Shown piece by piece: positions 8,746 through 46,766 of a DNA stretch of 64,000 nucleotides. The notes beneath the pieces were generated by a model. It had not been told where the DNA came from, ran no database searches, and was given only the letters and a program-made list of their open reading frames with translations. This DNA is from Synechococcus sp. CBW1107. GTDB lineage: Bacteria; Cyanobacteriota; Cyanobacteriia; PCC-6307; Cyanobiaceae. Position 1 is the first letter of the stretch. The number at the start of each line of letters is the position of its first letter. The stretch lies in the NCBI RefSeq assembly GCF_015841355.1, contig NZ_CP064908.1:744001-808000 (forward strand), in the 5' to 3' direction. The position numbers were made by a program, and so were the translations under genes.

Positions 8746-8761
8746 ATGTCTCTAGAGACAT
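8746..8761. promoter_or_regulatory. Sulfide-regulon operator, site 1 (arsR/MBL-rhodanese)
   Basis: ATGTCTCTAGAGACAT, a perfect 16-bp palindrome of the form ATG-N10-CAT between divergent arsR and the MBL-rhodanese gene. The other arsR/MBL intergenic region has ATG-N10-CAT at the equivalent place (46660), and both continue into TATGCAC. Inferred ArsR binding site. Confidence 0.65.
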
Positions 8762-8803
8762 TATGCACCCTGTCCAGGCGCGGTGGATGGATCCAGCTCA
8801 CGG

Positions 8804-8823
8804 CTATGTGGCTATGCTCATAG
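8804..8823. promoter_or_regulatory. Sulfide-regulon operator, site 2 (MBL-rhodanese)
   Basis: CTATGTGGCTATGCTCATAG: arms CTATG and CATAG around 10 bases, 33 bp before the ATG of the MBL-rhodanese gene. TATGCT inside it can serve as a -10 box preceded by TGTG, so a repressor bound here would block the promoter. Close to the sites at 17832 and 46751. Confidence 0.65.
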
Positions 8824-8855
8824 CAGCCAAGTCAGTCCTCCACCCCCGGGAGCCC

Positions 8856-10013
8856 ATGGCCCAGTCTCTCTCCACCGATCCTCGCTCCGCCCCGGAGGCG
8901 GCCGCCATGCTCGCGGCCGCCTCCGGCGGATCCACTCTGCTTCTCCGGCAGCTGTTCGATGCCGACACCGGCACCTTCACGTATCTGCTCGCCGATGTGG
9001 CGAGCAGACAGGGTGTGCTGATCGACGCGGTCTTCGAGCAGCACGAGCGTGACCTCTCCCTGATCCAGGAGCTGGGGATCAAGCTGGTGGCCTGCCTCGA
9101 CACCCATGCCCACGCCGATCACGTCACCGGCAGCTGGCTGATGCACGACGCCACCGGCTGCGCCATCGGCCTGGCGGCCGCCGCCCGCGCCGAGAACGTC
9201 ACCCTGCCGCTCCACCACGGCGATCGGGTGCCATTCGGCGGACGCCACCTGGAGGTGCGTGCCACCCCGGGCCACACCAACGGCTGCCTCACTTTCGTGC
9301 TCGACGACCAGACGATGGCCTTCACCGGCGACGCGCTGCTGGTGCGGGGCTGCGGACGCTGCGACTTCCAGGACGGCAACCCCCACACCCTCTACCGCTC
9401 GATCACCGGGCAGATCTTCTCCCTGCCCGAAACCTGTCGGCTCTACCCCGGCCACGACTACAACGGGCGCACCGTGAGCTCGGTCGCGGAGGAGAAGGCC
9501 TACAACGCCCGCCTCGGCGGCGAGGCCGACGAGCGCGACTTCGTGGGCTACATGGAGAATCTCCAGCTCCCCCACCCCCGCAGGCTGGCCGAGGCCCTGC
9601 CCGCCAACCTGCGCAGCGGCAGGCCCCGGGGGGACACGGCCCCCGGCCCGGACGACTGGGCCCCGATCCAGCGCAGTTATGCCGGCCTGCCCCAGCTCGG
9701 GCCCCGCTGGGTGCGCGAGCACCAGGCTGATCTCACCCTCCTGGACGTGCGCTCGGCCGAGGAATTCAACGGACCTGACGGGCACATCCCCGGCAGCCTG
9801 CTGATTCCCCTGCCGGAGCTGGAGCAGCGGCAGGGCGAAATCCCCTCCGGCCGGCCGCTGGTGGTGCTCTGCCATTCCGGCAGCCGCTCGGCCCTGGCCA
9901 CCCTGGAGCTGCTCAAGGCCGGTCGCCCGCATGTGGCCAATCTGCAGGGGGGTCTGCGCGCCTGGCAGCGGGACGGCCTGCCGCTGGACCACCCCACACC
10001 CACCCACTCCTGA
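8856..10013 (+). CDS. Persulfide dioxygenase (ETHE1-like MBL) fused to rhodanese
   Basis: 385 residues from MAQSLSTDPR; in-frame starts further up would run through the operators. Residues about 20-270 are a metallo-beta-lactamase fold with THAHADH, a metal-binding GHT and the late GHDY motif of the ETHE1/Blh group. Residues about 295-375 are a rhodanese domain with active loop CHSGSRS. Known chemistry: a glutathione or other low-molecular persulfide is oxidised to sulfite by the iron dioxygenase, and the rhodanese moves sulfane sulfur. Sulfite would leave through the TauE/SafE protein encoded 3 bp downstream. Divergent from arsR; two operator dyads lie upstream. Second copy of the dioxygenase domain: 46789-47430. 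Confidence 0.9.
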   Translation: MAQSLSTDPRSAPEAAAMLAAASGGSTLLLRQLFDADTGTFTYLLADVASRQGVLIDAVFEQHERDLSLIQELGIKLVACLDTHAHADHVTGSWLMHDATGCAIGLAAAARAENVTLPLHHGDRVPFGGRHLEVRATPGHTNGCLTFVLDDQTMAFTGDALLVRGCGRCDFQDGNPHTLYRSITGQIFSLPETCRLYPGHDYNGRTVSSVAEEKAYNARLGGEADERDFVGYMENLQLPHPRRLAEALPANLRSGRPRGDTAPGPDDWAPIQRSYAGLPQLGPRWVREHQADLTLLDVRSAEEFNGPDGHIPGSLLIPLPELEQRQGEIPSGRPLVVLCHSGSRSALATLELLKAGRPHVANLQGGLRAWQRDGLPLDHPTPTHS

Positions 10014-10016
10014 GCT

Positions 10017-10892
10017 GTGCTCACCACAGGCACCCTGGCGCTGCTGGCCGCGGGAGGCGGCCTGATCGGCTTTCTGCTGGCGGTGCTCGGCGCCGGAGGA
10101 TCGATCCTGCTGATGCCCCTGCTGATCAGCGGCGTGGCCCTGCCCACCCGGGAGGCGGTGCCCCTGTCGCTGCTGGTGGTTACCCTGCTGGCCCTGGGCA
10201 ACGTGGGGCCTTACCTCCGTCGCCGCCAGGTGGCCTGGCGGCCGGCCCTGATCCTGGGTGTGCCGGCCCTGGCCGGCAGCTGGATCGGCGGAAGCCTGGT
10301 GAAGGCCGGCCTGATCCCTGAACCCGTCCAGCTGGCGGTGTTCGCCCTGGCGGCGCTGGTGGCCTCCTGGCTGCTGACCCGCCGCTCGACGCCGCGGGAG
10401 CCCCTGCCCCGGGCCGGCAGTGCAGGAGCGCCGATCAGCACCACGGTCTCCCTGGCCCTGCAGGGGGTGGTGGTGGGTCTGCTCACCGGCATCGCCGGCG
10501 TGGGAGGCGGGTTCGCGATCGTGCCGGCCCTGGTGCTGCTGGCCGGCCTGCCCATGCCCCTGGCCAGCGGCACCAGCCTGCTGCTGATCGCGGCCAACAG
10601 CCTGGTGGCCCTGACGGCGCAGGGCCACTGGCCTGCGACCAGCCTGCCGATGATGCTGCCGCTGCTGGCCGGCGGAGCCCTGGGGGGCCTGGTGGGTCAG
10701 TGGCTGGCACCGCATCTGCCGGAACGGCAGCTGCGGCGTGGCTTTGCGGCCCTGCTGATCGGCTCGGCCCTTCTCACCGGCGCGGAAGCCTGGAAGCGGC
10801 AGACGCCACCGGGAACGATGAAGCAGGCGGAGTCGGCACAACCCCCATCGCCGGCCATGTCGGTGCGCCACGACGCCGCATCAAGGCCTTGA
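10017..10892 (+). CDS. TauE/SafE (DUF81) sulfite/anion exporter
   Basis: 291 residues starting with GTG 3 bp after the dioxygenase stop, hence same transcript. It has about eight hydrophobic segments and two similar glycine-rich halves (AGGGLIGFLLAVLGAGGSIL near the start; GIAGVGGGFAIVPALVLLAG in the middle), the DUF81 pattern. Family members export sulfite, sulfoacetate or related anions. Directly after a persulfide dioxygenase, sulfite efflux is the natural inference. Hydrophilic tail of about 25 residues. Confidence 0.85.
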   Translation: MLTTGTLALLAAGGGLIGFLLAVLGAGGSILLMPLLISGVALPTREAVPLSLLVVTLLALGNVGPYLRRRQVAWRPALILGVPALAGSWIGGSLVKAGLIPEPVQLAVFALAALVASWLLTRRSTPREPLPRAGSAGAPISTTVSLALQGVVVGLLTGIAGVGGGFAIVPALVLLAGLPMPLASGTSLLLIAANSLVALTAQGHWPATSLPMMLPLLAGGALGGLVGQWLAPHLPERQLRRGFAALLIGSALLTGAEAWKRQTPPGTMKQAESAQPPSPAMSVRHDAASRP

Positions 10893-10905
10893 TCCGGCAT
10901 GGACT

Positions 10906-13347
10906 TCAGATCCCGCTGGGCCGTCCCTGCAGACCCAGCAGCTGCCGGCGGGGATCAAAGAGCTCGTAGGCCAGGATCTTCACGCGGTCATTGAAGACGA
11001 AGAAGATCAGGCTGTACCCCCAGACGGCCAGGGCCAGGGGCCAGCCCAGGGGAGTCATGACCACGCCGTACACCGCCAGCAGCGTGGCGGCGACCTGGGT
11101 CACGAGCACCGCCGTGGTCAGGATCGTGGCCGGCCGCGACTGCCAGAAGGGTCCGCGGGTCCGCGCCACGAACACCGTCAGATGCCCGGCCACGGACAGC
11201 TTGAGGTACAGCAGGGTCTGGACCGTGTCCCGGCCGAGCTCGAGAAGATGCTCCGCGACATAGAGGAGGCCGAAGGACTCAGCCACCCCCAGAACCCCCA
11301 GCACGCTGGCCACGCCGAGGACCACCGGCATGTTCCAGCGCTCGGGCCGGAGGGAGAAGGATGCACGGTCATAGGCGATCGAGAGGATGGCGCCATCGTT
11401 GAGCAGGGCCAGCAGCACGATCATCACCGCCGTCACTGGATAGAAGTCGAAGACAAGAATCGACAGTGTCGTGAACAGCAGCACCCGGATCGTTTCCGCG
11501 ATTCTGTAGATCGCATAGTGGTTCATTCGCTGAAAGATGCGGCGGCTTTCGCGCACCGCCTCGGCCACGATCGAGAGGCCTGGAGTCAGGAGCACGATGT
11601 CGGCCGCGGCCCGGGCGGCATCGGTCGCATTCGACACGGCGATGCCCGCATCCGCCTTCCTGAGCGCAGGGGCGTCATTGACCCCATCACCAGTCATGCC
11701 CACGAAATGTCCGCGCTGCTGGAGCACATCGACGATGTGATATTTGTTCTCTGGAAAGACCTGAGCAAAGCCATCCGCCTGCTCGATCGCCTCGCTCAGC
11801 TGGCCGCTGTGATGGGGCGGTGAGTCGAGCAACAGAGCCGAGTCCAGGATTCGCTGGCCCAGACCCAGCTGCCTGGCCATTTCCAGGGCGATGGCGTGCT
11901 GATCGCCGGTGATCATCTTCACCGACACTCCCAGCTGCTGGAGCTCGGCAATGGTGGTGGCGGAATCCGGCCGCGGTGGATCCAGCAGCGGCAGGATTCC
12001 CAGATAGTTCCAGTGTCCCGTGGCATCGGTACGCGCCACCCCGAGCGAGCGGAAACCGCGCCCGGCGAAGCTGAGGCTCACCGCCTCCACCTGCGCAGCC
12101 AGGGCAGGGTCACCCCCCACCAGGGCGAGGATCACCTGAGGGGCTCCCTTGCTGACCCGGAAGCACTCACCGGCGGCTGTTCTCAGGCTGGCTTCGGTGC
12201 GTTTGCCGACGGGATCGAAGGGGATGAACCGCTCGAGCGTGGCCTCTGGATTCAAGCCCTGCTCGGCAGCGGAGTTGAGGATCACCAGATCGATCGGATC
12301 CTGACTCTCCCAGCGGGAGGCCAGGGCAGCGGCTTCCAGGATCTGCGCGGCCGTGGAGGATCCGAAGCAGAACGGGGGACCCGTGCTGAGCTGGTTGCGG
12401 GTGAGGGTGCCGGTCTTGTCGGAGCAGAGCACATCGATGCCCGCCAGCTCCTCGATCGCGGCGAGCTTGCTGACGATCGCCTGCTTCCTGGCGAGCCTCT
12501 CCGCCCCCACGGCCATGGTGACCGAGAGCACGGCGGGCATGGCCACCGGGATGGAGGCCACGGTGAGCACGAGCGAGAACGTCAGGATCGTGATCAGGCT
12601 CTGATGCCGGAAGATCCCCACCATCAGGATCACCAGAACGAGGACCAGAGCCAGGGCGATCAGGTAATCGCCGATGTTCAGGACGGCCTGCTGAAAGTGG
12701 CTGACCGAACGGGTTCCCTGCACCAGCCGGGCCGTTGTGGCGAAGGAGGTGGCGGCACCGGTGGCATGGACCAGAGCGTCGGTTTCACCCCGTTTGACGA
12801 TGGAGCCGGAGTAGAGGATGGATTCCGCCTGCTTCGCCACGGGCAACGATTCCCCGGTCAGGGCCGACTGGTCGACCTCGATCGCCTCAGCGCCGACCTG
12901 GAGCGCATCGGCGGGAACGATGTCACCGGAGCGCAGATGCAGGAGATCACCGGGCACCAGGTCCCGGGCGGGGATGGTGCTCCAGCGGCCATCCCGCTTC
13001 ACCCGGGCCAGCAGGGCCAGCTGCGAGCGCAGGGCCTCGATGGCATGGCCGGCCTGGTGTTCCTCCCAGAAGCCCACCAGCGCATTCACCGCCAGAAGGG
13101 TGATGATGATGCCGAAATCGGTCCAGTCGCCCACGAGCGCCGAGAGCAGCGCCGCTGATTCGATCATCCAGGGGATGGGCCCCCAGAGGTGCTCCAGCAG
13201 CTGACTCCAGACGCTTCGAGCCGTTTCGGGGAGGGTGTTGGGTCCGTGGCGCTCGAGCCGCTGCCGGGCCTCCTCGCCGCTCAGTCCCTCCAGATCTGTC
13301 TGCAGACGCTGCTGCGCTTCAGCGAGGGTGGTCGGGGTGACGGCCAT
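10906..13347 (-). CDS. Plasma-membrane-type H+-ATPase (P3A P-type)
   Basis: 813 residues. Cation-ATPase N-domain first (GLSGEEARQRLERHGPNTLPE), then two membrane helices, the actuator motif TGES (near residue 150), phosphorylation site DKTGTLT (near 315), MITGD, and hinge motif TGDGVNDAPAL followed by six C-terminal helices. Absence of metal-binding CPC and of a heavy-metal N-domain, and the short actuator, fit the P3A proton pumps of fungi, plants and some prokaryotes. Role: proton export and membrane energisation or pH control. It converges with the TauE gene (13 bp between stops). Confidence 0.88.
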   Translation of the reverse strand: MAVTPTTLAEAQQRLQTDLEGLSGEEARQRLERHGPNTLPETARSVWSQLLEHLWGPIPWMIESAALLSALVGDWTDFGIIITLLAVNALVGFWEEHQAGHAIEALRSQLALLARVKRDGRWSTIPARDLVPGDLLHLRSGDIVPADALQVGAEAIEVDQSALTGESLPVAKQAESILYSGSIVKRGETDALVHATGAATSFATTARLVQGTRSVSHFQQAVLNIGDYLIALALVLVLVILMVGIFRHQSLITILTFSLVLTVASIPVAMPAVLSVTMAVGAERLARKQAIVSKLAAIEELAGIDVLCSDKTGTLTRNQLSTGPPFCFGSSTAAQILEAAALASRWESQDPIDLVILNSAAEQGLNPEATLERFIPFDPVGKRTEASLRTAAGECFRVSKGAPQVILALVGGDPALAAQVEAVSLSFAGRGFRSLGVARTDATGHWNYLGILPLLDPPRPDSATTIAELQQLGVSVKMITGDQHAIALEMARQLGLGQRILDSALLLDSPPHHSGQLSEAIEQADGFAQVFPENKYHIVDVLQQRGHFVGMTGDGVNDAPALRKADAGIAVSNATDAARAAADIVLLTPGLSIVAEAVRESRRIFQRMNHYAIYRIAETIRVLLFTTLSILVFDFYPVTAVMIVLLALLNDGAILSIAYDRASFSLRPERWNMPVVLGVASVLGVLGVAESFGLLYVAEHLLELGRDTVQTLLYLKLSVAGHLTVFVARTRGPFWQSRPATILTTAVLVTQVAATLLAVYGVVMTPLGWPLALAVWGYSLIFFVFNDRVKILAYELFDPRRQLLGLQGRPSGI

Positions 13348-13368
13348 GGGCGTGCACCGGAGGCTCCC

Positions 13369-15549: not shown

Positions 15550-15639
15550 GGCTGGAGCCCGACCCGCAGCAGAGGTGACGAAGGCCAGGCCCCCACAGCT
15601 CTCACAGCAAGGGGGTGAGCGGCGGTGGCCCAGGACACC

Positions 15640-15945
15640 TCAGTGGCCGCAGCGCGCCGAATGATTCACCTGCGACTGGACGGAGCACACCAGGGTGGCC
15701 ACCGCACCGGCCGGGAAGGGCACGGCATCGCCGGACTGGGTGCTGCTGGGAAGGGCATGGAGCCATTCCCGGCAGCAGGCCAGGGCTTCAAGCACGGCAT
15801 TCTCCTGCTGAAGGGCATCCTGATCGCACCAGTGCGTGAGGCGGTCAGCGATGCTTCCCGCCTCGATGGGGCAGGACACAGTCAATTCCTCACACCCGGA
15901 TGGGGAGGGCGCGAGGGACGACGGGCGAGTTGGTGGAGTGACCAT
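15640..15945 (-). CDS. Hypothetical protein (weak)
   Basis: 101-residue open frame with helical, Cys-containing composition (ADRLTHWCDQDALQQENAVLE, shown here only as a low-complexity-free stretch). No family recognised. It is upstream of phoX on the same strand with about 90 bp between. The opposite strand is also open, so coding status is uncertain. Confidence 0.3.
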   Translation of the reverse strand: MVTPPTRPSSLAPSPSGCEELTVSCPIEAGSIADRLTHWCDQDALQQENAVLEALACCREWLHALPSSTQSGDAVPFPAGAVATLVCSVQSQVNHSARCGH

Positions 15946-16006
15946 GGCTCAACGGCAACGGAACCGTGGCGGACAACCGCCTCAAGACGCGATCAGTCGC
16001 GTGTGA

Positions 16007-16252
16007 TCAGCCCCGCCAGGTGGGCAACCCATGGCGACCACGGTTGCGCCAGAGGGATTCAGCACTCACGTGCAGGCCATGACGGGCCGCCAGGCTGGCG
16101 GCGGCATGGGTGGAACCGGTGTTCTTCAGCGCCTGGGCAAAGACCGGATCGTGGCTGGCCAGCCTCTGCAGGGCGTGGAGGTCATCGAGGCTCGTGTGAA
16201 CGGTTCGCTCCGGAGCCATCAGGCCTGGAGCGGACGGAACAGCTTGCATCAT
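16007..16252 (-). CDS. Nif11-like leader peptide
   Basis: 81 residues. The central segment LHALQRLASHDPVFAQALK, then THAAASLAARHGLHVSAESLW, has the helical Nif11 pattern (short helix, D/P-xF/L, 'A..LA...G..VS...L'). Nif11 domains serve as leaders of ribosomally made peptides such as prochlorosins, or occur as orphan proteins. The tail RNRGRHGLPTWRG lacks the Cys/Ser/Thr-rich core of a lanthipeptide and no modifying enzyme is nearby. The start could also be the ATG at 16249 or 16219. Confidence 0.6.
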   Translation of the reverse strand: MMQAVPSAPGLMAPERTVHTSLDDLHALQRLASHDPVFAQALKNTGSTHAAASLAARHGLHVSAESLWRNRGRHGLPTWRG

Positions 16253-16553
16253 CTCATCAATCTCCCGATCTCTTCCCCAAGCCTAAGCAGATAGCCACGG
16301 GCATTGATCAGTATTCGTACCTATCTTTACTTAAGCCGAATTCGCCTGACAGCCCGACAATCACGCACTTATTTTATCACAGTCATGACTCCTTTTTGAG
16401 CAAGCCGTTCATTCCTGATTGGCGAGATCCAACTCTCGAGATCAGATCCTCCAAGCCTCGGCGCACCAATCCCCGAGGCTCCGGTCGTCCTCGATGCCTT
16501 GGCAGTGGCCATGGATCTGGAGCATGCTGGAACCAGTGGTGCCGTTCCCTGAG
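16253..16553. other. Intergenic, no gene seen
   Basis: About 300 bp of visibly lower GC (runs such as tacttaagccgaattcgcc and cacttattttatcacagtc) between the divergent Nif11 and hypothetical genes. Probably holds both promoters; no dyad or RNA gene recognised. Confidence 0.4.
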
Positions 16554-17075: not shown

Positions 17076-17170
17076 GCGCAGAGTCACCCATGCCCTCTCG
17101 GACCGATGCGGTGCCGGGCGCCTGAGTGCAGACAGCCCGGATGTTCAGTCGTGCCTGACTGGCCCGGCGA

Positions 17171-17831: not shown

Positions 17832-17851
17832 TTATGTGGCTATGGTCATAA
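17832..17851. promoter_or_regulatory. Sulfide-regulon operator (rhodanese)
   Basis: TTATGTGGCTATGGTCATAA: perfect 5-bp arms around N10, 24 bp before the rhodanese start. Differs from the site at 8804 at only a few positions. TATGGT within it is a plausible -10 box with extended TGTG. Confidence 0.65.
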
Positions 17852-17875
17852 CAGCACCAAAGGCCCTTCTGCGCC

Positions 17876-18418
17876 ATGACGACCACCACCACTGCGATGG
17901 CCACTCCCTCCCGAATCACCGCCAAGGACCTGGCCAAGCAACTGGCGGCCCGCGAGGTCACCTTGATCGACGTGCGCGAACCGATGGAGTACGCCAGCGG
18001 GCACATCAGCGGCAGTCTCAATGTCCCCCTCTCCCGCATCACCGAGACCGACCTGCCCAGCGGTCCGCTCGTGCTGGTGTGCCAGAGCGGCAAGCGCAGC
18101 ACCAAGGCCCTCACCCAGCTGCTGCAGCAGGGCCATCCCCATCCGCTGGCGGATCTTGAGGGGGGAGTGCCCGCCTGGCAGCAGGCTGGCCGCCCGCTGC
18201 GGAAACTGAAGGGGGCCCCCCTGCCGCTCATGCGCCAGGTGCAGATCGCCGCAGGCTCCCTGGTGCTGCTCGGACTGATTCTGAGCAACACCGTGGCCCC
18301 TGCCTGGATCCTGCTCACCTGGTTCGTGGGGGCGGGTCTCACCTTCGCCGGCATCACCGGCTTCTGCGGCATGGCCAGGCTGCTGGCTGCCATGCCCTGG
18401 AACAAGGTGACGTTGTGA
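17876..18418 (+). CDS. Membrane-anchored rhodanese (YgaP-like)
   Basis: 180 residues. Rhodanese domain at about 12-110 with IDVREPMEY and the active loop CQSGKRS (catalytic Cys, then Arg five residues on). Then a DUF2892-like membrane part with two helices (LVLLGLILSNTVAPAWILL and FVGAGLTFAGITGFCG). E. coli YgaP has this same layout and handles sulfane sulfur at the membrane, under the ArsR-type YgaV. Here an operator like those of the ArsR/MBL loci lies upstream and an OsmC-family gene follows 12 bp later. An alternative ATG is at 17897. Confidence 0.88.
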   Translation: MTTTTTAMATPSRITAKDLAKQLAAREVTLIDVREPMEYASGHISGSLNVPLSRITETDLPSGPLVLVCQSGKRSTKALTQLLQQGHPHPLADLEGGVPAWQQAGRPLRKLKGAPLPLMRQVQIAAGSLVLLGLILSNTVAPAWILLTWFVGAGLTFAGITGFCGMARLLAAMPWNKVTL

Positions 18419-18430
18419 GGGCCTCTTGCA

Positions 18431-18877
18431 ATGGCTGAACGCCTCTTCCAGTTCCGGCTGCACAGCAGCCACCATGGTCCGGATCGCCAGAGCGAGGATG
18501 TGGTGGTGGAGTTCCTCACCGATGCCGGTGAGTGGCAATCCCAGGAGCTCAGCCTCACCATGCCGGGCTTCAGGCTCTACCTGATCTCGCTGCTGCTCTG
18601 CCAGCACGTCTATCTGGTGGCCAATGCCAGGGAAAGGGGCCTCCCGCTGCAAGCGGTGGACGCTGATTTCAAGGTCACCACCAGCAGCGACTGGATCCTC
18701 AAGCGTGTGGAGGGTGACTTCCGTCTGCGCCTGGATCCTGCCGCCGCTGACCAGGAGAGAGGCCGCGTCGATGCCGAGGCCATGGCTCACCTGCAGGAGC
18801 GCATGACGCTCTGCCCCGTCTCCCGCAACCTCCCAGGCGGGGTGCACAAGCGCATCGACCTCCGCCTGCTTGGCTGA
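18431..18877 (+). CDS. OsmC/Ohr-family-like protein
   Basis: 148 residues. The OsmC pattern is recognisable: a long central helix [18 protein letters not shown] followed by [14 protein letters not shown], and a C-terminal [10 protein letters not shown] with the second conserved cysteine. OsmC/Ohr proteins reduce peroxides with a Cys pair, and some relatives act on organic persulfides. It is 12 bp after the rhodanese, so probably co-transcribed and in the same sulfur regulon. The start of pdxH lies about 30 bp downstream, so pdxH may be read through from this promoter. Confidence 0.65.
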
Positions 18878-37112: not shown

Positions 37113-37139
37113 TACAGGTGTACGCATGGGTACAGGGGT

Positions 37140-38394: not shown

Positions 38395-38940
38395 TCAGGT
38401 CGCCAGGCTCGGTGGCAGCTCATGGAGCGCCTGCACCACTTCAGGTTGCAGCATGACCAAGGTCGTCCCCTGTTGATTGTCGGTCGGCACCTCCAGTTGC
38501 AGGGGCAGCACGTCGCTGGGCCTGGGATCCAGGGCATGGGCGTCGAACTGGGCCGAGGCCTCGGGGATCACCTCTTCCCCCTGTCGCACCAGTTCCTCAC
38601 TGCGGTTCGGCAGATTCCAGGCACCGCCCAGGCCATCACTCAGGAGCAGCGGCCTTTGGTGATCCACCACCTGTCCTGGTGAGCGGGCCGTCAGGCGTAG
38701 GCGCCAGCCGGCTGGGTAGGCGGGATCAGGCTGCTCAAACAGGGTCATGCCCCAGGAATGACCCGAGGAATCCGTGAGGGTCCAGCGCTGTGGATCGATT
38801 GCTGCCTGGGCCTGGAGCGGCAGAACCATCAGGGTCAGGGCAAGCAGAACAGCGGCGAAGACGGGTCGCCAGTTGGGTCGATGCAACCGGTGAGGAGCAG
38901 GGCGGCAACCCGCACCAGCACCTTGAGAAGAAATGCTCAT
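38395..38940 (-). CDS. DUF3122 secreted protein
   Basis: 181 residues. Signal region [20 protein letters not shown], then [54 protein letters not shown]: the DUF3122 pattern of cyanobacteria. Role unknown, probably periplasmic or lumenal. Divergent from psbA with about 130 bp between; the operator-like dyad next to its start could control both genes. Confidence 0.75.
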
Positions 38941-38941
38941 A

Positions 38942-38957
38942 ACGCCTATCGCGTCAT
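38942..38957. promoter_or_regulatory. Sulfide-regulon operator-like site (psbA), one mismatch
   Basis: ACG-N10-CAT, flanked as CATAACGCCTATCGCGTCAT, followed by AG. It aligns base for base in spacing with the site at 46751 (CATAATGCGGCTACACTCAT). The left half has C for T. 115 bp before the psbA ATG. No HLR1 element is visible here, unlike typical light-driven psbA promoters. Confidence 0.45.
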
Positions 38958-39072
38958 AGAAGGTTTCAACGCTACTGTTTTATCGGGAAGAGTCGGCGTC
39001 CAGCTGGTCGTCCACCACTGTGGGCCGCCCGCGCCTTCACAGCTCTCCCCAGCCCCGTCTTCATTCCTGGCC

Positions 39073-40152
39073 ATGACGACAACCATCCTCAAGCGTTCCT
39101 GGGGCAATCCATGGAACAGTTTCAAGGACTGGGTGACCAGCACCGAGAACCGCCTCTACGTGGGCTGGTTCGGTGTGCTGATGATCCCCACCCTGCTCGC
39201 CGCCACCTGCTGCTTCCTGATCGCCTTCATCGGCGCTCCACCCGTCGACATCGACGGCATCCGCGAGCCGGTCTCCGGGGGACTTCTCTACGGCAATAAC
39301 ATCATCACCGCCGCGGTGGTCCCCTCCAGCAACGCCATCGGCCTGCACTTCTACCCGATCTGGGCCGCCTCCAGCCTCGACGAATGGCTCTACAACGGCG
39401 GCCCCTACCAGCTGATCATCTTTCACTTCCTCATCGGCATCTTCTGCTGGATGGGCCGCGAGTGGGAACTCAGCTACCGCCTCGGCATGCGCCCCTGGAT
39501 CGCCGTGGCCTATTCCGCACCGGTGGCCGCCGCCACGGCCGTTCTGCTGATCTACTCGATCGGGCAGGGTTCCTTCTCCGACGGCATGCCTCTGGGCATC
39601 TCCGGCACCTTCAACTTCATGCTGGTGCTCCAGGCCGAGCACAACGTGCTCATGCACCCCTTTCACATGCTCGGCGTGGCCGGCGTGTTCGGCGGCAGCC
39701 TGTTCTCGGCCATGCACGGCTCGCTCGTCACCAGCTCACTGGTGCGGGAGACCACGGAAACCGAGAGCCAGAACCGCGGTTACAAATTCGGCCAGGAGGA
39801 GGAGACCTACAACATCGTGGCGGCCCACGGTTACTTCGGCCGGCTGATCTTCCAGTACGCCTCCTTCAACAACAGCCGCAGCCTGCACTTTGTCCTGGCG
39901 GCCTGGCCCGTGGTGGGCATCTGGTTCGCGGCCCTGTCCGTGGCCAGCTTCTCGTTCAACCTCAACGGCCTGAATTTCAACCATTCGATCGTGGATCACC
40001 AGGGCCGGGTGGTGAACACCTGGGCCGACATCCTCAATCGGGGCGGTCTGGGCATCGAGGCGATGCATGAGCGCAACGTGCACAACTTCCCCCTCGATCT
40101 GGCCACGACCGCCAGCACCCCCGTGGTGCTCAGCGCGCCGGCGATCGGTTAG
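39073..40152 (+). CDS. psbA: Photosystem II D1 protein, divergent copy
   Basis: 359 residues, numbering as canonical D1. Present: Tyr161, Asp170, Glu189, His190, His198, His215, Ser264, His272, His332, Glu333, His337, Asp342, Ala344, so the Mn-cluster, P680 and quinone-iron ligands are intact and a C-terminal extension of 15 residues can be cut. Glu130 marks the D1:2-like (high-light) type. Unusual: Ala98 for Glu, Trp126 for Tyr, Ala144 for Cys, Ser162 for Pro (next to TyrZ), Arg235 for Tyr. Sits in a cluster with petC and sqr, and has an operator-like site instead of HLR1. I infer a condition-specific D1, perhaps for sulfide or low oxygen. Confidence 0.95.
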
Positions 40153-40331
40153 CGGGACTTTGACCCCCGCCCAGTCGATCCCTCTTCGCTCAACGGTCTG
40201 AGCATCGAACCGGGGCCTGGAGTGATCCGGGCCCTTGTCGATCTCCAGGATCCCTGCCGATCACCCGTGGGCCTCCTGTCCAGACTTCAGATGATGCCGC
40301 CGACGCGGACCAGTTCCCTTGCCCTGGCACC

Positions 40332-40535
40332 ATGCCCTTCGCCCTGAATTTCGTCCATCCAGTGCTCATGTGGGTGCTGCTTGGCCTGATGCTCTACTCG
40401 GGCTACCTCGGCTTCAAGGCCAGCCTGATCCGCAAGGTGAGCGCCGAGGAACGCAAGACGATGGTTCCCCTGCGTTTTGGCCAGCGTCACGCCCAGCTCG
40501 GTGCGGTGATCCTGGGCCTCACCCTGCCCCCTGCG
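40332..40535 (+). pseudogene. DUF4079 membrane protein, 5' part (split by IS)
   Basis: MPFALNFVHPVLMWVLLGLM, then LYSGYLGFKASLIRKV and FGQRHAQLGAVILGLTLP: N-terminal half of a DUF4079 (cytochrome b561-like fold) protein. After codons near 40530 it runs into the IS3 left inverted repeat. The second half resumes at 42369. Before insertion it would have been the second gene of a psbA-DUF4079-DUF3365-petC cluster. Confidence 0.8.
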
Positions 40536-40591
40536 TCAGGAAAGTTGTCCGCTCGGTCTGACCCATCCACCAGGGGGCCAAACCGACGACC

Positions 40592-41101
40592 ATGAAACCG
40601 ACCTATGACACCGCTGTGCGGGACCAAGTCCGCCAGCGCATGAGCCCGCCAAACCGGGAGAGCGTGGCCGAGATCGCCCGCTCTACCGGGATCACGACCC
40701 AGACCCTCTACAACTGGCGCAGCCAGTGGCAGAAGCAGGGTCAGCTCGTGCCAGCCACCACCAAGCCGCCAGAGCAGTGGAGCGCTCTCGACAAGCTGGC
40801 CGCTGTGATCCAGGCGGCCGGCCTGAGTGGCCCTGATCTCGGGGCCTTCTGCCGTGAGCGGGGCCTCTACCCCAAACAGCTTGCCCGCTGGCGGCAGGCC
40901 GCCGAGGATGCCAATGGCCCCAGCGCTCCGAGCATGGCTGATCAGCGAGAACTTCAGCGTAAGAATCAGGAGCTGATTCGCCAGAATCGCCGCTTACAAC
41001 GCGAATTGGAGAAGAAGGAGAAGGCTCTCTCGGAGGCGGCAACACTGCTGATGCTCTCAAAAAAGCTCGATCAGCTGTGGCCACGGGACGAGGAACAATG
41101 A
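40592..41101 (+). CDS. IS3-family OrfA
   Basis: 169 residues. Helix-turn-helix near residues 25-45 (SVAEIARSTGITTQTLYNWR) and a Leu/Lys/Glu-rich coiled-coil end. Contains the slippery heptamer A AAA AAG at 41059-41065 in the right phase for a -1 shift into OrfB. OrfA recognises the IS ends. Confidence 0.85.
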   Translation: MKPTYDTAVRDQVRQRMSPPNRESVAEIARSTGITTQTLYNWRSQWQKQGQLVPATTKPPEQWSALDKLAAVIQAAGLSGPDLGAFCRERGLYPKQLARWRQAAEDANGPSAPSMADQRELQRKNQELIRQNRRLQRELEKKEKALSEAATLLMLSKKLDQLWPRDEEQ

Positions 41102-42156
41102 TCCCGCCAGAGGATAGAAGTCAGCTGATGGAATTGTTCCGAGAAGGTCTCAAAGAAGGGGCTTCTGCCACGGCGATTGCAGATCTGATCGGTATCTGCT
41201 CACGCACGTTACGGCGCTGGGGCATTGCGTTCCAGACACATGGATTCAGCCAGGATCGCCGCAAAGGCTCTCCACGGAATGTGGCGCACCGATTCACACC
41301 AGAAGAGCGGCAGCGCTTAATTCACATCGTCAACGATCCGCGATTCGCGGACCTCACTCCCGCCCAGATCGTGGCCATCCTTGCCGAGGAGCGAATCTAT
41401 GTGGGTTCAGAGTCCACGATTTACCGCATCATGCGGCAAGAGGGTCTGCTGAACCACCGTGGCAGAACCCGCCTGCCGCGTGAGCCCAGGGAGGTTCCGG
41501 TGTTGGAAGCAACGGGCATCCATCAAGTACTGGCCTGGGATATCACCCTCCTCCCCGGCCCCGTGAAGGGGCAGTTCTATTACCTCTACATGGTGATGGA
41601 TGTATGGAGCCGGCGCATCCTCGGCGCAGAGGTGCATGAGCATGAATGTAGCGAGTTGGCCAGCGCATTCTTTGATCGTGTCTGCCGCGATGAAGGGATC
41701 AGCAAGGAGACTGCTGCGGTCCTGCACTCGGACAATGGCGCCCCCATGCGCTCATTCACTCTGGCGGCCAAGATGGCGGAGCTGGGGGTGTCGCTTTCGT
41801 TCTCGAGGCCACGCGTCAGCAATGACAACGCCTATGCCGAGTCGTGGTTCCGCACGATGAAATACCACCAGAGTTATCCGCTCAGGCGATTCCGGGATCT
41901 GCTTTCGGTGAAAGCCTGGGTGGATGGCTTTGTCGAGTGGTACAACGCTGAGCACCGGCACAGCGGCATCAAGTACGTGACGCCCAATCAGCGCCATTAC
42001 GGCCAGGCTGACGCGATCTGCGCCATCCGCCAACAGACCTATGAGGAAGCTCGGCAGAGGCATCCTCAGCGCTGGAGCCGGCCACCCCGCAACTGGTTAC
42101 AGCCACAGGTTGTGAGCATCAACCATCCGCGACCGCAGAAACCTGTGGCTGCTTGA
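41077..42156 (+). CDS. IS3-family OrfB transposase (rve/DDE)
   Basis: 359 residues as a separate frame; the frame is already open upstream to the A AAA AAG site, so an OrfAB fusion can form. Integrase core with DDE: Asp in VLAWDITLLPG, Asp in VLHSDNGAPM, Glu in NAYAESWFRTMK. N-terminal HTH (GASATAIADLIGICSRTLRR). Apparently intact, so the element may still move. Confidence 0.9.
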   Translation: MATGRGTMIPPEDRSQLMELFREGLKEGASATAIADLIGICSRTLRRWGIAFQTHGFSQDRRKGSPRNVAHRFTPEERQRLIHIVNDPRFADLTPAQIVAILAEERIYVGSESTIYRIMRQEGLLNHRGRTRLPREPREVPVLEATGIHQVLAWDITLLPGPVKGQFYYLYMVMDVWSRRILGAEVHEHECSELASAFFDRVCRDEGISKETAAVLHSDNGAPMRSFTLAAKMAELGVSLSFSRPRVSNDNAYAESWFRTMKYHQSYPLRRFRDLLSVKAWVDGFVEWYNAEHRHSGIKYVTPNQRHYGQADAICAIRQQTYEEARQRHPQRWSRPPRNWLQPQVVSINHPRPQKPVAA

Positions 42157-42368
42157 CCCTCAACAATCCAGGCCCCCGTGGCTGTCCGATGGCGCCCCTC
42201 CAAGGGCGCGATCGGCAACAGCCGCGATCAGGGGCCGGACGCCCCAACCCCGACCGAAGACAGCCATCGATGACAACAACACCCCGGCCGTGCGGCCCCT
42301 GAACCTCAACTCGCAGTACAGTCCATCTCGGTGCTCAGCTCAGCACCCCGAGCGGACAACTTCCCTGA

Positions 42369-42656
42369 TAGGTCCCGCTGCTGGGAGCTGCCGGGGGGAT
42401 GGCTGCCACCTTCCTCAAGAACGGCAAGCTGATCATCGGCCCCCACCTGTTCGTGGGGCTGACCGTTGTCGTGCTGGTGATCGCGACGGCCTCCCTGGGC
42501 CCTTCCCTCCAGAAGGGCAAGGACTGGGCTCGGGGCCTGCACGTAGCCATCAATGGGGGGGTGCTGCTGCTGTTCGGCTGGCAGGCCATCAGCGGCATCG
42601 CCATCGTCCAGAAGCTGCTGAGTTCAGCGGCAGCACCAACGTCCCTTGGCACCTGA
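42369..42656 (+). pseudogene. DUF4079 membrane protein, 3' part
   Basis: Frame VPLLGAAGGMAATFLKNGKL, IIGPHLFVGLTVVVLVIA, then KGKDWARGLHVAINGGVLLL and GWQAISGIAIVQKLL, the second half of DUF4079. Joined to 40332-40535 it gives a normal four-helix protein. The ATG at 42399 could start a short product. The DUF3365 gene starts 5 bp after its stop. Confidence 0.8.
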
Positions 42657-42660
42657 TCCG

Positions 42661-43305
42661 ATGACCTCCACCACTCTTCTCCAGCGGCTGGCACGGCGGG
42701 CCCTCTCCACCCTGCTGCTGATGCTTGTCGGCGTTGGGCTGTTGACAGCCCTGCCGAGCACCACCCTGGCTGCCGAGGCCACGCCACCGGTCGACTCGGC
42801 AGCCCTCGCCAAGGCCGTGGTGGCGATGGAGCAGCTCGATCAGATGCGCATCTCCCTGGCCTCCACGCTCGAGGGCCGCACCGAGGAGCCCACCATCGAA
42901 ACAATGAAGGAGGTGTGCAAACCGGTGGGCATGCGGGCCATCGCCATCGGTAAGGAGAACGGCTGGCAGGTGCGTCAGGTGGCCGGCAAGTACCGCAACC
43001 CCGACCACGCCCCCGCCAACCCTCAGGAGAGTCAGGTGATCGATCTGTTCACCAGACATCCTGAGATCAACGGGCTCTGGGAACCGGCCATGGCAGAACA
43101 AGGTACCGGCCTGAACTACTACCGCCGCATCAACGTGCAGCCGAGTTGCCTGGCCTGCCACGGCACCAAGGCCAGTCGGCCGGCATTCATCAAGGACAAC
43201 TACCCCGACGACAAGGCCTTCGACTTCAAGGTGGGTGACCTGCGCGGCATGTATGCCGTGCACCTGCCGGAGGTTCAGGCGGCTCTCGCCGCCGCCGCGG
43301 GCTGA
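42661..43305 (+). CDS. DUF3365 c-type heme protein (Tll0287-like)
   Basis: 214 residues. Signal peptide ([25 protein letters not shown]) and mature PAS-like DUF3365 domain with one heme-c site CLACHG near residue 162. Thermosynechococcus Tll0287 of this family has a heme with His/Cys axial ligands and is thought to be a redox sensor. Here it lies between psbA/DUF4079 and petC, so a lumenal redox role linked to the photosynthetic chain is likely. Intact; transcription from the psbA promoter would now have to cross the IS. Confidence 0.85.
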
Positions 43306-43335
43306 GCCACGCCAGCCCAAGGATTTCTCTGCTTT

Positions 43336-43351
43336 ATGTGTATCTCGTCAT
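43336..43351. promoter_or_regulatory. Sulfide-regulon operator (petC)
   Basis: ATG-N10-CAT within CTTTATGTGTATCTCGTCAT, then AGG. TTATG...CATAG arms match at four of five bases. 25 bp before the petC ATG. Confidence 0.6.
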
Positions 43352-43375
43352 AGGCCGAACTGGAAGTCCAGGGTC

Positions 43376-43924
43376 ATGGCCCTCATTCCCTCACGACCGT
43401 CCAGCAGCGAGGCCCCCAACCTGGGCCGTCGTCAGTTCATGAACCTGCTCACCTTCGGTGCCGTCACCGGGGTGGCGCTCGGCGCCCTCTATCCGGTGGT
43501 GCGCTACTTCATCCCTCCACGGGAGGCTGGCTTATCGGGTGGTGCCCTTGCCCTGGATGAACTCGGCAATCCGATCGCGGCCAACGGCTGGCTGGCCAGC
43601 CACCCGGAAGGCGACCGCAGCCTGGTGCAGGGCCTCAAGGGCGATCCCACCTGTCTGATCGTCGAAGGGCAGGGTGCCATCGGTGCCATCGGCATCCATG
43701 CCATCTGCACCCATCTGGGTTGCGTGGTCCCCTGGAACAGCGGCGAGAACAAGTTCATCTGCCCCTGCCACGGCAGCCAGTACGACCCTGAGGGGGCTGT
43801 GGTCCGCGGTCCCGCCCCGCTCCCCCGGGCCATGGCCCATGTGGCGGTGGCTGGCGAACGGGTGCAGCTCAACCCCTGGAGCGAAATCGATCCCCGCGCC
43901 GGGGGGAAGCCGTGGTGGAGCTGA
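43376..43924 (+). CDS. petC: Cytochrome b6f Rieske iron-sulfur protein
   Basis: 182 residues from [30 protein letters not shown] is the twin-arginine type membrane anchor; the 2Fe-2S motifs are CTHLGC and CPCHGS, and a [12 protein letters not shown] loop follows. Length equals normal PetC. Cyanobacteria often have several petC genes. Its place between a heme protein and sqr, with a sulfide-type operator, suggests an alternative Rieske subunit for plastoquinol oxidation when SQR feeds electrons into the plastoquinone pool. Confidence 0.93.
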
Positions 43925-43954
43925 GCTTGGTGTGAGGGATCTGGCTCCAGCTGG

Positions 43955-44896
43955 TCAGGACGGCTCTACGGAGGGACAGATCGAGGTCCGGTTGAAATTG
44001 GCGAAGTCGAAGCTTTGGCCCTCGCCATCCTGCTCCTCCATCATGTCCACGAAGCGCTCACCGAAGAGCACCTGGGCAATTGGGTAGTTGTGATGGGCGT
44101 GGATCGGCCGCTCCAGAGTTTCGTCAATGCCACTGAACGAAATCACGATGTCGGCTTGGCTTGCGGTCAGCTCCTGGGGAGTAAGTCTATGCAAGGGGCT
44201 GTGCTGATCGATCGCATGCATCACTGTCCAGGTGAGCAGGAAGAGAGGCGCACAATCGCGGTTCAACGTCATCGGGTGCAGACGTCGCATCCGGTGACCT
44301 TCCGAAGTGCGCTCATCGATGGCGAGATAGGTCCGAATCTTGGCATCGAGAATGGTCTTGCGCCGTTCATTGGCCACACGGAACATCAAGGTGGGCAGTC
44401 CGTTATAGGCATGTACGGTAGCCACATCCGAGAACAGGATCCGCGCTGTGGACCTCGAGAAACGGCTGAAGGTCGATCCTGTGATCAGGGCAATTAAAAT
44501 CAACCCCACCAATGACTCGATGGTGACAATCAGATTCGTGAAGAGACTGCTGGGATAGAGCGCTCCATAGCCGATCGCCCCCAGGGTGTGCACGCTGAAG
44601 AAGAATGCTTCCAGGAAACTTGTTGCAGGGCCAGCCACGCCCGAGATCCCATGGGGATCCAGCCAATAAAGGGCGGCGAACACCAGGTGGAGAAGCACGT
44701 ATCCCACGGCGATCAACGCAAAGAAGACCGGCCACGGAACGGCCAGCATCAGGTGATTGGGATAGCGCCACTGGCGCATCCAGTCGGCTGGATTCACCGA
44801 CGAGAAGATGCCGCCATGCTTCTGGAGCCGCACCGGAGGCACTCGGTCGCCCTCAGCTGAAGCCTGTTGCCATGGCGCCATCGAACGCACCGTCAT
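43955..44896 (-). CDS. KirBac-type inward-rectifier potassium channel
   Basis: 313 residues from MTVRSMAPWQ (in-frame alternatives: ATG 44932, which contains the operator dyad's right arm). Two membrane helices flank the pore with selectivity sequence HTLGAIGYGALYP (TxGYG type). A cytosolic immunoglobulin-like IRK domain follows (LMFRVANERRKTILDAKIRT, HPLHRLTPQEL-like). Divergent from sqr with a shared operator, so it may be co-regulated and respond to membrane potential changes. Confidence 0.82.
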   Translation of the reverse strand: MTVRSMAPWQQASAEGDRVPPVRLQKHGGIFSSVNPADWMRQWRYPNHLMLAVPWPVFFALIAVGYVLLHLVFAALYWLDPHGISGVAGPATSFLEAFFFSVHTLGAIGYGALYPSSLFTNLIVTIESLVGLILIALITGSTFSRFSRSTARILFSDVATVHAYNGLPTLMFRVANERRKTILDAKIRTYLAIDERTSEGHRMRRLHPMTLNRDCAPLFLLTWTVMHAIDQHSPLHRLTPQELTASQADIVISFSGIDETLERPIHAHHNYPIAQVLFGERFVDMMEEQDGEGQSFDFANFNRTSICPSVEPS

Positions 44897-44920
44897 CACG
44901 CCAACAGACTTTATCCTCCT

Positions 44921-44936
44921 ATGCGCTTGCAAGCAT
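44921..44936. promoter_or_regulatory. Sulfide-regulon operator (Kir/SQR)
   Basis: ATG-CGCTTGCAAG-CAT between the divergent Kir and SQR genes, with the inner palindrome CTTGCAAG and flanks TATG/CATG. About 70 bp before the SQR start. Confidence 0.55.
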
Positions 44937-45005
44937 GTATTTATGTATGGGATGCCACCGTTTCACCAGGGCCTGACTAGACAGAGGAAGGCTCAGAGGT
45001 GATCG

Positions 45006-46301
45006 ATGGCCGCATACGGCACCATGGGCCACCGCCACCATCAGGTGTTGATCGTGGGCGGTGGCTCTGGCGGCGTCACCGTGGCCAGCCAGCTCCTGCG
45101 GACCCGCCCCGGCCTCGATGTGGCGATCCTGGAACCCTCCTGCGTTCACGAGTACCAGTCGGGCTGGATCCTGGCCGGCGCCGGTCTGCTCCCCTACGAA
45201 GCAACCCACCGCCCTGAGGCCGCTGTGATCCCGGCGGGTGCCGTCTGGATCCAGGGCAGCGCGGCAACCTTCGAGCCGGAGGCCCACCGGGTGATCACCG
45301 CAGCCGGTGAATCCCTCGGCTACGACGTGCTCGTGGTGGCCATGGGCCTCCAGCTCAACTGGAGCGCCATCAAGGGCCTGCCGGAGGGCCTCGGCCACCA
45401 CGGCATCGTCAGCAACTATTCCCACGCCCACATCGCCGCCACCTGGGAGACGATCCGCGGCTTCCAGGGGGGAACCGCCCTGTTCACCCATCCGGCCACG
45501 CCGATCAAGTGCGGCGGCGCCCCCCAGAAGGTGATGTACCTGGCCGACGACGTGTTCAAGGCCACCAGCGGCGTGGGGGTGAACACCCGGGTGATCTTCT
45601 GCACCGCCATGGCGCAGCTGTATCCGGTCAAGGCCTACAACGCCACTGTCGAGCGCGTCGTGGCGCGGCGGGGGATCGAAACTCGTCTGCTGCACAACCT
45701 GATCGAGGTGCGCGCCGAGGAGCAGGTGGCGGTGTTCGAGGTCAGGGTGGAAGGCCGTGAACCTTCCCTTGAGGAGATTCACTTCGACCTTCTTCATGTG
45801 GTGCCACCGATGGCTGCTCCGGACGTGGTGGCCCGTAGCCCCCTGGCGATCGAGGGTCCGGGCGGCTGGGTGGAGGTGAACAAACTCACCTGCCAGCACA
45901 AGCGATTTGCCGATGTGTTCGCTCTCGGAGATGTGAGCTCTCTCCCCACCTCGAAAAGCCTGGCCGCCATCCGTGGTCAGGCGCCGGTGCTGGTGGCCAA
46001 CCTGCTGGCTCAGGTCGATGGACGCCCGCTTGCGGCCTACTACGACGGCTACACCGCCTGCCCGTTGATCACCAGCTTCCACAGCGTGGTGATGGCGGAG
46101 TTCGACTATGACCTCCAGCCCGTCAGCTCCTTCCTGGTGGATCCCACCCAGGAGCGCTGGAGCATGTTTCTGGTGGAAACGCGGGTGTTCCCGTGGGTGT
46201 ACTGGCACCGGGTGCTCAAGGGCCGTCTGCACGAGAGCCGCTTCCTGAAGCCGCTGGCGCCGTTGGTGCGTGCGTTGGGGCTGGCGTTCAAGCAGCCGTG
46301 A
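45006..46301 (+). CDS. sqr: Sulfide:quinone oxidoreductase (type II-like)
   Basis: 431 residues (ATG 45024 also possible). FAD-binding GGGSGGVTVASQL near the start, redox-site region HPATPIKCGGAPQKVMYLAD with a Cys, and C-terminal FAD/quinone segment VFALGDVSSLPTSKS. This pattern, with one visible core Cys in PIKCGG, is like the SQR type II / mitochondrial SQOR group. It oxidises sulfide to a persulfide or polysulfide and passes electrons to the plastoquinone pool. Persulfide dioxygenase and rhodaneses in the window would process the product. Convergent with arsR2 with no gap. Confidence 0.9.
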   Translation: MAAYGTMGHRHHQVLIVGGGSGGVTVASQLLRTRPGLDVAILEPSCVHEYQSGWILAGAGLLPYEATHRPEAAVIPAGAVWIQGSAATFEPEAHRVITAAGESLGYDVLVVAMGLQLNWSAIKGLPEGLGHHGIVSNYSHAHIAATWETIRGFQGGTALFTHPATPIKCGGAPQKVMYLADDVFKATSGVGVNTRVIFCTAMAQLYPVKAYNATVERVVARRGIETRLLHNLIEVRAEEQVAVFEVRVEGREPSLEEIHFDLLHVVPPMAAPDVVARSPLAIEGPGGWVEVNKLTCQHKRFADVFALGDVSSLPTSKSLAAIRGQAPVLVANLLAQVDGRPLAAYYDGYTACPLITSFHSVVMAEFDYDLQPVSSFLVDPTQERWSMFLVETRVFPWVYWHRVLKGRLHESRFLKPLAPLVRALGLAFKQP

Positions 46302-46649
46302 TCACACCGCCTGCAGTTGGCTGAGCTGCTGCTCCAACCGCTGCTTGAGCCGACGTTGCACCAGGTTGCAGAGGTCCTCCACCAGGGGGTCGGCCACCGC
46401 GTAGATCAGCCGCGTGCCATCCCGCACACAACTCACCAGGCCAGCCCTCTGGAGCTGCCCCAGCTGGCGGCTGATGTGGGACTGGCTGAATCCGGTGGCC
46501 TCGATCAGGGAGGCCACATCCATGGCGCCGCCGTGCTTGAGCTGACAGAGCAACTGCAGGCGGGCCGGCTCGCTCAGCAGGCGGAAGAAGGCGCTGAGTT
46601 CATCGAGGAGCTGGGGACTGGGCAGTGACGGGGGCGGGGTCCGGCGCAT
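46302..46649 (-). CDS. ArsR-family (SqrR/BigR/SuoR-like) repressor
   Basis: 115 residues from MRRTPPPSLP. Winged helix: [60 protein letters not shown]. Cys in LLCQL and in EDLCNLV occupy places like the dithiol pair of SqrR/BigR sensors; a third Cys is in the wing. No arsenic-type CxC motif in the DNA helix. Inferred to bind ATG-N10-CAT sites and to release DNA when a tetrasulfide bridge forms. Divergent from the second MBL gene. Intact copy of the frameshifted gene at 8386-8710. Confidence 0.85.
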   Translation of the reverse strand: MRRTPPPSLPSPQLLDELSAFFRLLSEPARLQLLCQLKHGGAMDVASLIEATGFSQSHISRQLGQLQRAGLVSCVRDGTRLIYAVADPLVEDLCNLVQRRLKQRLEQQLSQLQAV

Positions 46650-46659
46650 GGACGGGCTT

Positions 46660-46675
46660 ATGTCGATACACGCAT
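46660..46675. promoter_or_regulatory. Sulfide-regulon operator, site 1 (arsR/MBL2)
   Basis: ATGTCGATACACGCAT, in the context CTTATG...CATTATGCACG, equivalent to the palindrome at 8746. 10 bp before the arsR start, so it suits autorepression. Confidence 0.6.
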
Positions 46676-46750
46676 TATGCACGAAGCGCGCATGGCGGGG
46701 GCCTGAGGAGCGCCGCGGCCCGGACGACCGAAATCGCCTTAACGCCCATA

Positions 46751-46766
46751 ATGCGGCTACACTCAT
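46751..46766. promoter_or_regulatory. Sulfide-regulon operator, site 2 (MBL2)
   Basis: ATG-CGGCTACACT-CAT, 22 bp before the MBL2 ATG; TACACT is a plausible -10 box. Aligns with sites at 8804 and 17832 (shared GGCTA in the spacer). Confidence 0.6.

Follow-up and report, generated by a model that had tools for sequence, protein, structure and literature searches.

How cyanobacteria switch their electron flow upon contact with sulfide is an open question, which we addressed with a locus of Synechococcus sp. CBW1107. Anoxygenic or micro-oxygenic psbA, or petC2, has been described close to sqr (sulfide:quinone reductase, SQR), with arsR near sqr, and a linked regulation was suggested (PMC5061849, PMC11304991). 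The psbA/sqr genes were called an attractive target, with shared regulation suggested from their spacing (PMC5061849), and in 2021 the effect of sulfide on the expression of cyanobacterial psbA was called unstudied (PMC8002359). The stretch analyzed (hereafter the window; 64,000 nucleotides, positions 744,001 to 808,000 of contig NZ_CP064908.1, assembly GCF_015841355.1) represents 2% of a one-contig genome of 3.20 Mb with a completeness of 99.99. An initial annotation had proposed that a dyad, ATG-N10-CAT, marks the targets of a single dithiol ArsR repressor controlling sulfide genes together with the Rieske (petC) and D1 (psbA) subunits. By computation this proposal stood for the sulfide genes and petC, and was weaker for psbA, one half-site of which is degenerate. 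With a probability of roughly 0.8, we consider that the ArsR protein encoded at 46302-46649 has wATGCGnnTAnnCGCATw (16-bp core ATGC-N8-GCAT) as its operator and would act as a repressor similar to SqrR and BigR.

Seven exact ATG-N10-CAT sites (8746, 8806, 17834, 43336, 44921, 46660, and 46751) were found at the positions initially given for them, as was an eighth with a single mismatch at 38942, which reads ACG-N10-CAT; all of them lie in the promoters of the genes named (Table 1). Enrichment of the motif by count was rejected, since 20 matches were found in the window vs. 17.1 expected (standard deviation 4.2), a chance level close to the one previously estimated. In a separate observation, the repeats of a repetitive open reading frame at 48361-49290 hold three ATG-N10-CAT matches (48794, 48881, and 49028). 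A symmetric matrix of 24 bp was built from 52 sites of relatives, five of them petC sites, with the window excluded, and it ranked exactly the eight sites 1 to 8 among all window positions (26.0 to 12.5 bits; 8.95 bits for the next), in agreement with the idea that they stand beyond chance. The sites are real but they are not independent of each other, because gene duplication accounts for the promoter pairs 8746/46660 and 8806/46751, and the sequence around 17834 is similar to the MBL promoter.

The dyad is very probably a real operator because of its conservation in relatives, where it is kept at the exact spacing before arsR, MBL-rhodanese, and sqr/Kir, and before petC in the closest clusters. 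Counts covered 150 bp of upstream sequence and a further 20 bp for each gene, with the window excluded and near-identical genomes kept. A first set of relative loci left out matches below 48% identity (a limit not applied to OsmC and Kir) and genes lacking over 60 residues at the 5' end, and a second set had the same exclusions with an identity threshold of 50%. The exact dyad was present before arsR in 15/15 cases, MBL in 18/18, sqr in 18/21, Kir in 11/13, and petC in 4/6; Kir shares its intergenic region with sqr, and arsR with MBL. Values for the remaining genes were 1/12 for psbA, 1/17 for rhodanese, 0/13 for TauE, 1/13 for OsmC, 0/9 for Tll0287, 2/8 for DUF4079, and 3/15 for DUF3122. Shuffled upstream regions yielded 0.28 to 1.48 dyads expected per gene class, and with other spacings (N4-N9 and N11-N18) the maxima were 8/13 for TauE at N17 and 7/21 for sqr at N4, all others being at most 4. 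When distinct regions were counted with the window included (leaving out also identical upstream regions, regions shorter than 300 bp, and genes under the set identity), the exact ATG/CAT core occurred in 16/17 sqr, 25/25 MBL, 21/23 arsR, and 6/8 petC regions. These distinct-region rows were chosen for an identical core, which excluded few of them, and the flanks of their sqr, MBL, and arsR sites were 35-52% alike pairwise. Outside the operon, rhodanese in the window and OsmC in two relative loci (L048 and L118) have a site of their own. The second sqr of the genome, a 64% paralogue, was rejected as a regulon member, as its site was found in 0/9 loci, including that of CBW1107 itself.

Because the window promoters are orthologous to the training promoters, gene classes were also left out of the matrix training. 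A matrix from arsR and MBL sites, with psbA, sqr, and petC absent from the training, gave 21.2 bits to the petC site (rank 6) and 14.9 bits to the psbA site (rank 7); the best unlisted position in the window scored 7.1 bits, and the sqr/Kir site fell to 6.9 bits (rank 11). The six top positions with an sqr-only matrix were 44921, 46660, 8746, 46751, 17834, and the petC site. With sqr and petC sites combined, psbA ranked 11 and an unlisted position, 59931 (10.7 bits), came above 8806. The operator classes recognise one another, with psbA and sqr at opposite extremes. At the scale of the genome, we used the pattern WATGHSN6SDCATW, which was picked from the matrix of relatives with the window sites already known and is restricted to strong sites; those of psbA and sqr/Kir, the weakest of the window, do not fit it. 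It occurred at nine distinct places, six of them in the window and all six before island or sulfide genes, and the three outside scored 2.6, 10.9, and 7.4 bits; the reversed pattern gave one match per strand. A random spread of hits through the genome, which the initial annotation had named as counting against its proposal, was therefore not seen with this fixed pattern. An earlier search allowing mismatches was discarded as too loose (236 matches on both strands vs. 138 in the reversed control).

Of 400 genomes of the family, 119 carried a stricter pattern of the motif and 122 an ArsR orthologue (E value of 1e-20). Both occurred together in 111 genomes, ArsR alone in 11, the pattern alone in 8, and neither in 270 (Fisher test, P = 5e-75, relatedness ignored). 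Among the matches listed, 99 of 139 arsR genes shared their contig with a site, located within 300 bp in 77 cases and within 1 kb in 86.

The ArsR protein itself matched HTH_5 with 38 bits (cut-off 22) and the ArsR/SmtB metalloregulator profile. Cys35 and Cys94 were present in 34/34 distinct sequences, window included, and Cys74 in 29/34; in the predicted model (pLDDT 88.4) Cys35 lies in the helix formed by residues 28-40, whereas the helix of residues 89-113 has Cys94 close to its beginning. A Foldseek search with this model returned SmtB at rank 1 and SqrR at rank 3. Cys35 aligns with a Cys of YgaV, and the helix-2 Cys that marks the SqrR/BigR/SoxR sensors is present. The dithiol nature initially attributed to the protein holds as regards two invariant Cys, but not the spacing of the SoxR and sHdrR type, whose Cys50 and Cys116 are 66 residues apart (PMC10451225, PMC12423496) vs. 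59 here, by residue numbers. Because of this spacing, the designation of dithiol persulfide sensor draws on gene content and fold.

Like SqrR of Rhodobacter capsulatus, the protein has the ArsR fold and a Cys in each of helices 2 and 5, and it is predicted to regulate genes for sulfide use in a phototroph; its candidate operator, ATGC-N8-GCAT, also has the dyad length of 16 bp of the deduced SqrR site, ATTC-N8-GAAT (PMC9774250). The system differs by one base per half-site, by the Cys spacing, and by predicted targets that include petC of an oxygenic phototroph. The operon of BigR has MBL/rhodanese-type (Blh) content, and arsR of CBW1107 adjoins an operon with MBL-fold/rhodanese and TauE genes; however, the protein scored 37.5 bits with the BigR equivalog model (cut-off 155), and the MBL-rhodanese fusion 94.6 bits with the Blh model (cut-off 625). 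SuoR of Synechocystis PCC 6803 is also a cyanobacterial ArsR-like repressor of sqr, but there a type I sqr is accompanied by an arsenite transporter, on a plasmid (PMC4307280), whereas in CBW1107 the predicted targets are petC, Kir, and the MBL operons, and none of the scanned proteins belongs to an arsenic family. Position, gene content, and the geometry of the operator indicate that the ArsR protein probably works like SqrR and BigR, without being filed as a member of either family.

Besides the Cys spacing and the BigR score, several results weigh against the operator assignment proposed here. A sigma-70-like consensus promoter was found in none of the three stretches scanned. The sqr-only matrix put 8806 at rank 13 and psbA at rank 84, and an arsR-only matrix put the sqr/Kir site at rank 66. 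The co-occurrence of motif and ArsR is in part a single locus counted twice, with relatedness ignored, and it has exceptions in 11 of 122 ArsR genomes, which are without the fixed pattern, and in 8 others, which have the pattern and no ArsR. Among the matches listed, 13 arsR genes were more than 1 kb from a site and 40/139 had no site on their contig. As for the targets, the best NCBIfam model for sqr was indeed the SQR model NF049943, at 188.9 bits and under its cut-off of 525, and the family models for the MBL-rhodanese fusion fell short of their equivalog cut-offs.

The petC gene of the island encodes a second Rieske protein, which is 72% identical to the other copy in the genome. Its site reached at least 19 bits at -40 in 7 of 10 close loci (the window, L054, L060, L066, L106, L108, and L198), which supports petC as a predicted target of the dyad operator in the closest clusters. 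The site was missing in the other three (L107, L109, and L110), and none of the five distant petC loci reached 13 bits, although in one, L049, the exact dyad does occur, at -20 and with 12.2 bits. The conservation of the petC site is also less telling, because its flanks are 71-73% alike.

The case of psbA is less clear. The genome has four psbA copies, and the D1 of the island copy (39073) shows 58 differences from that of two further copies, which are identical to each other. These include G80A, F158L, and T286A, which we take to be marks of the microaerobic D1-prime (psbA2 type), a literature search having given no confirmation. At -130 to -133, CATAACG-N10-CATA was found in the window, L055, L057, L060, L106, L110, and L198, with the variant CATACCG in L054 and a loss in L108; the form kept in close relatives thus has one mutated psbA half-site, and near-sites come up again in a few other clusters. 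No locus in either set of relatives has the exact dyad at the equivalent place, and the sole exact psbA dyad (L051) lies elsewhere, at -49.

These data bear on an alternative to which we give about the same credit as to its opposite, namely that psbA is outside the regulon. ArsR would then control the sulfide genes and petC, and psbA-DUF4079-Tll0287 would form a low-oxygen module that travels with the island under its own promoter element, ACGnTAnYGTT, at about -58 to -104. In keeping with this, the exact dyad appears in just 1 of 13 psbA upstream regions, and a separate conserved element of the ACGnTAnYGTT type, like TTTCAACGCTACYGTTNTAT, was recognized by a strict pattern in 20 of 31 psbA genes, including loci without sqr, where psbA-Tll0287 pairs are also found. 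The window carries the dyad-like element TTTCAACGCTACTGTTTTA at 38964-38982 before the divergent psbA, with one exact copy in the genome and retention in many relatives; it is possibly a low-oxygen promoter element. On the opposite side, the psbA site kept rank 7 with the matrix trained without psbA, sqr, and petC, and sites of at least 9.5 bits occurred in 10/18 psbA genes linked to sqr vs. 1/13 unlinked ones (P = 0.007, relatedness ignored; psbA below 80% identity, such as that of L056, those with missing 5' ends, and L264, with less than 200 bp upstream and 6.2 bits, were left out). Membership of psbA in the regulon is doubtful, and the site may be a weak operator added to a control of its own.

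It is rather improbable that the ArsR protein senses As(III) or another metal, H2O2, or a quinone instead of persulfide. Metal sensing is common among ArsR proteins, and the Cys spacing is non-canonical, with a third Cys (Cys74) in 29/34 distinct sequences. In addition, the ArsR-type RexT of Nostoc is an H2O2 sensor (PMC8960804) and SuoR of Synechocystis serves sqr together with an arsenite transporter (PMC4307280). Nevertheless, the operator set of sqr, MBL-rhodanese, rhodanese, TauE, and OsmC points to sulfide, and none of the 12 window proteins scanned matched a family of arsenic pumps or arsenate reductases at or above its cut-off. Binding of the dyad by another transcription factor is considerably less probable. 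Assignment to ArsR 46302-46649 derives solely from co-occurrence and position, but sites preceded arsR in 15/15 relatives, motif and ArsR co-occurred over 400 genomes, and 77 of the 99 arsR genes with a same-contig site, among the matches listed, had it within 300 bp. That the sites are chance matches, or merely the inherited likeness of duplicated promoters, is strongly disfavoured despite the lack of count enrichment and the location of several sites at duplicated genes, given the spacing control and shuffles in relatives, the exact core kept in sqr, MBL, and arsR regions with 35-52% alike flanks, and the detection by single-class matrices of the sites of other classes.

Eight extra sites above 20 bits were located in the relative loci at more than 250 bp from the mapped gene starts. 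Those in L053, L054, L067, L109, and L110 precede a gene whose product looks like subunit I of cytochrome bd oxidase, and in L053, L054, L067, and L109 a divergently oriented DUF3122 gene lies on the other side of the site; a Pfam run on two of these bd oxidase proteins confirmed both. The other three were near DUF3122 (L115), before petC (L106), and near MBL (L051). Examples of subunit I genes with a strong candidate operator are L053:3364-4773 and L067:6899-8308. The bd oxidase was rejected as a regulon member in CBW1107, from whose genome PF01654 is absent.

Under the operator assignment proposed here, the reduced ArsR dimer would occupy the dyad sites and block transcription. Persulfide or polysulfide derived from sulfide would modify Cys35 (helix 2) and Cys94 (helix 5) and release the repressor, allowing SQR, the MBL-rhodanese persulfide enzyme, rhodanese, the TauE exporter, the K+ channel, and the alternative Rieske protein to be made. 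In some relatives cytochrome bd oxidase would be made as well, so that sulfide electrons could both enter and leave the quinone pool. The inclusion of psbA would be weak at most: it travels with the other island genes, its candidate operator is degenerate, and it is probably under its own, perhaps low-oxygen, control. Tentatively, and with less confidence than in the operator itself, we suggest that one ArsR thiol switch rewires the whole picocyanobacterial quinone chain for sulfide through SQR, a second PetC, the bd oxidase of relatives, and a micro-oxic D1 with a weak operator, the Cys35/Cys94 sensing pair representing a new geometry.

The island has the same close spacing, with arsR, as the psbA-sqr and petC2-sqr neighbourhoods already described, but the published case is based on gene order and low-oxygen expression, petC2 induction at low oxygen among it, with no operator in the accessible portions of the sources (PMC5061849, PMC11304991). 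More recently than the 2021 remark on psbA, transcripts of psbA and petC were found to increase with H2Sn in Synechococcus PCC 7002, a strain outside the present analysis (PMC12466478). In the openly licensed literature searched, as far as its accessible text goes, we found no account of an ArsR operator upstream of either petC or psbA. With a candidate operator and a named repressor, the proposal lends itself to direct tests, and other picocyanobacterial genomes can be searched with the 24-bp matrix for candidate targets (petC, bd oxidase, sqr, and persulfide genes).

Table 1. Coordinates of the candidate operators and of the genes and relics around them in the window (scores of operators obtained with the matrix from relatives).
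Feature	Position	Strand	Location, family or score
psbA 3' relic	8119..8235	+	
arsR relic, frameshifted	8389..8713	-	
Operator candidate, perfect 16-bp palindrome ATGTCTCTAGAGACAT	8746..8761		Between arsR relic and MBL-rhodanese; 22.7 bits
Operator candidate CTATG-N10-CATAG	8806..8821		Before MBL-rhodanese; 20.5 bits
MBL1, MBL-rhodanese fusion	8856..10013	+	GloB 102.1, Blh 94.6 bits, both under cut-off
TauE/SafE exporter	10017..10892	+	PF01925
Operator candidate	17834..17849		Before rhodanese-YgaP-like/OsmC-like genes; 26.0 bits, best of window
Rhodanese with YgaP-like membrane domain	17876..18418	+	PF00581, PF11127
OsmC-like protein, weak match	18431..18877	+	PF02566 under cut-off
DUF3122 protein, divergent from psbA	38395..38940	-	PF11320
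Degenerate operator-like site ACG-N10-CAT, weak	38942..38957		Between DUF3122 and psbA, -131 of psbA; 13.7 bits
psbA, divergent D1	39073..40152	+	TIGR01151; 84% to identical pair of other copies
DUF4079, 5' part	40332..40526	+	Interrupted by inserted element
DUF4079, 3' part	42399..42656	+	PF13301
Tll0287-like protein	42661..43305	+	PF11845
Operator candidate	43336..43351		-40 of petC; 22.5 bits
petC	43376..43924	+	NF045928, 268.8 bits, cut-off 250
Kir-type (inward-rectifier) K+ channel	43955..44932	-	PF17655
Operator candidate	44921..44936		Between Kir-type channel and sqr; 12.5 bits
SQR-like flavoprotein (sqr)	45006..46301	+	PF07992 above cut-off
ArsR-family repressor, proposed regulator	46302..46649	-	NF033788, 72.9 bits, cut-off 55
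Operator candidate	46660..46675		arsR-proximal; 24.4 bits
Operator candidate	46751..46766		MBL2-proximal; 25.2 bits
MBL2, MBL-fold gene resembling MBL1, truncated	46789..47430	+	

The order of the island is DUF3122(-), psbA-DUF4079-Tll0287-petC, Kir(-), sqr, arsR(-), and MBL-rhodanese, rhodanese, TauE, and OsmC. It was complete in L054, L060, and L198, the remaining loci being partial or broken off at contig ends. Among 251 genomes of the family, sqr had a match at an E value of 1e-40 in 79, and full-length matches of at least 81% were found in 14 genomes plus the source genome. A close sqr is present, among others, in Synechococcus sp. GreenBA-s, Synechococcus sp. CCY 0621, and Synechococcus sp. 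SynAce01, as well as in Cyanobium sp. FGCU52 and in Aphanothece cf. minutissima CCALA 015. The L198 contig is assigned to a metagenome-assembled genome of Chitinophagaceae and is probably misbinned, because the entire cyanobacterial island is on it.

In the window, the MBL operon appears to persist as incomplete copies whose gene losses complement each other, MBL-TauE being kept in one place and rhodanese-OsmC in another, each with its operator retained. MBL1 may be persulfide dioxygenase-like, and the psbA 3' relic and the arsR relic (8119-8713) are probably leftovers of a second copy of the island. The true start of the Kir channel is probably downstream of 44932. An inserted element at 40527-42370 (ends approximate), with open reading frames that look transposase-like by eye, interrupts DUF4079, and short repeats of the CTAGGCAT type occupy positions 47440-47600, directly 3' of the truncated MBL2.

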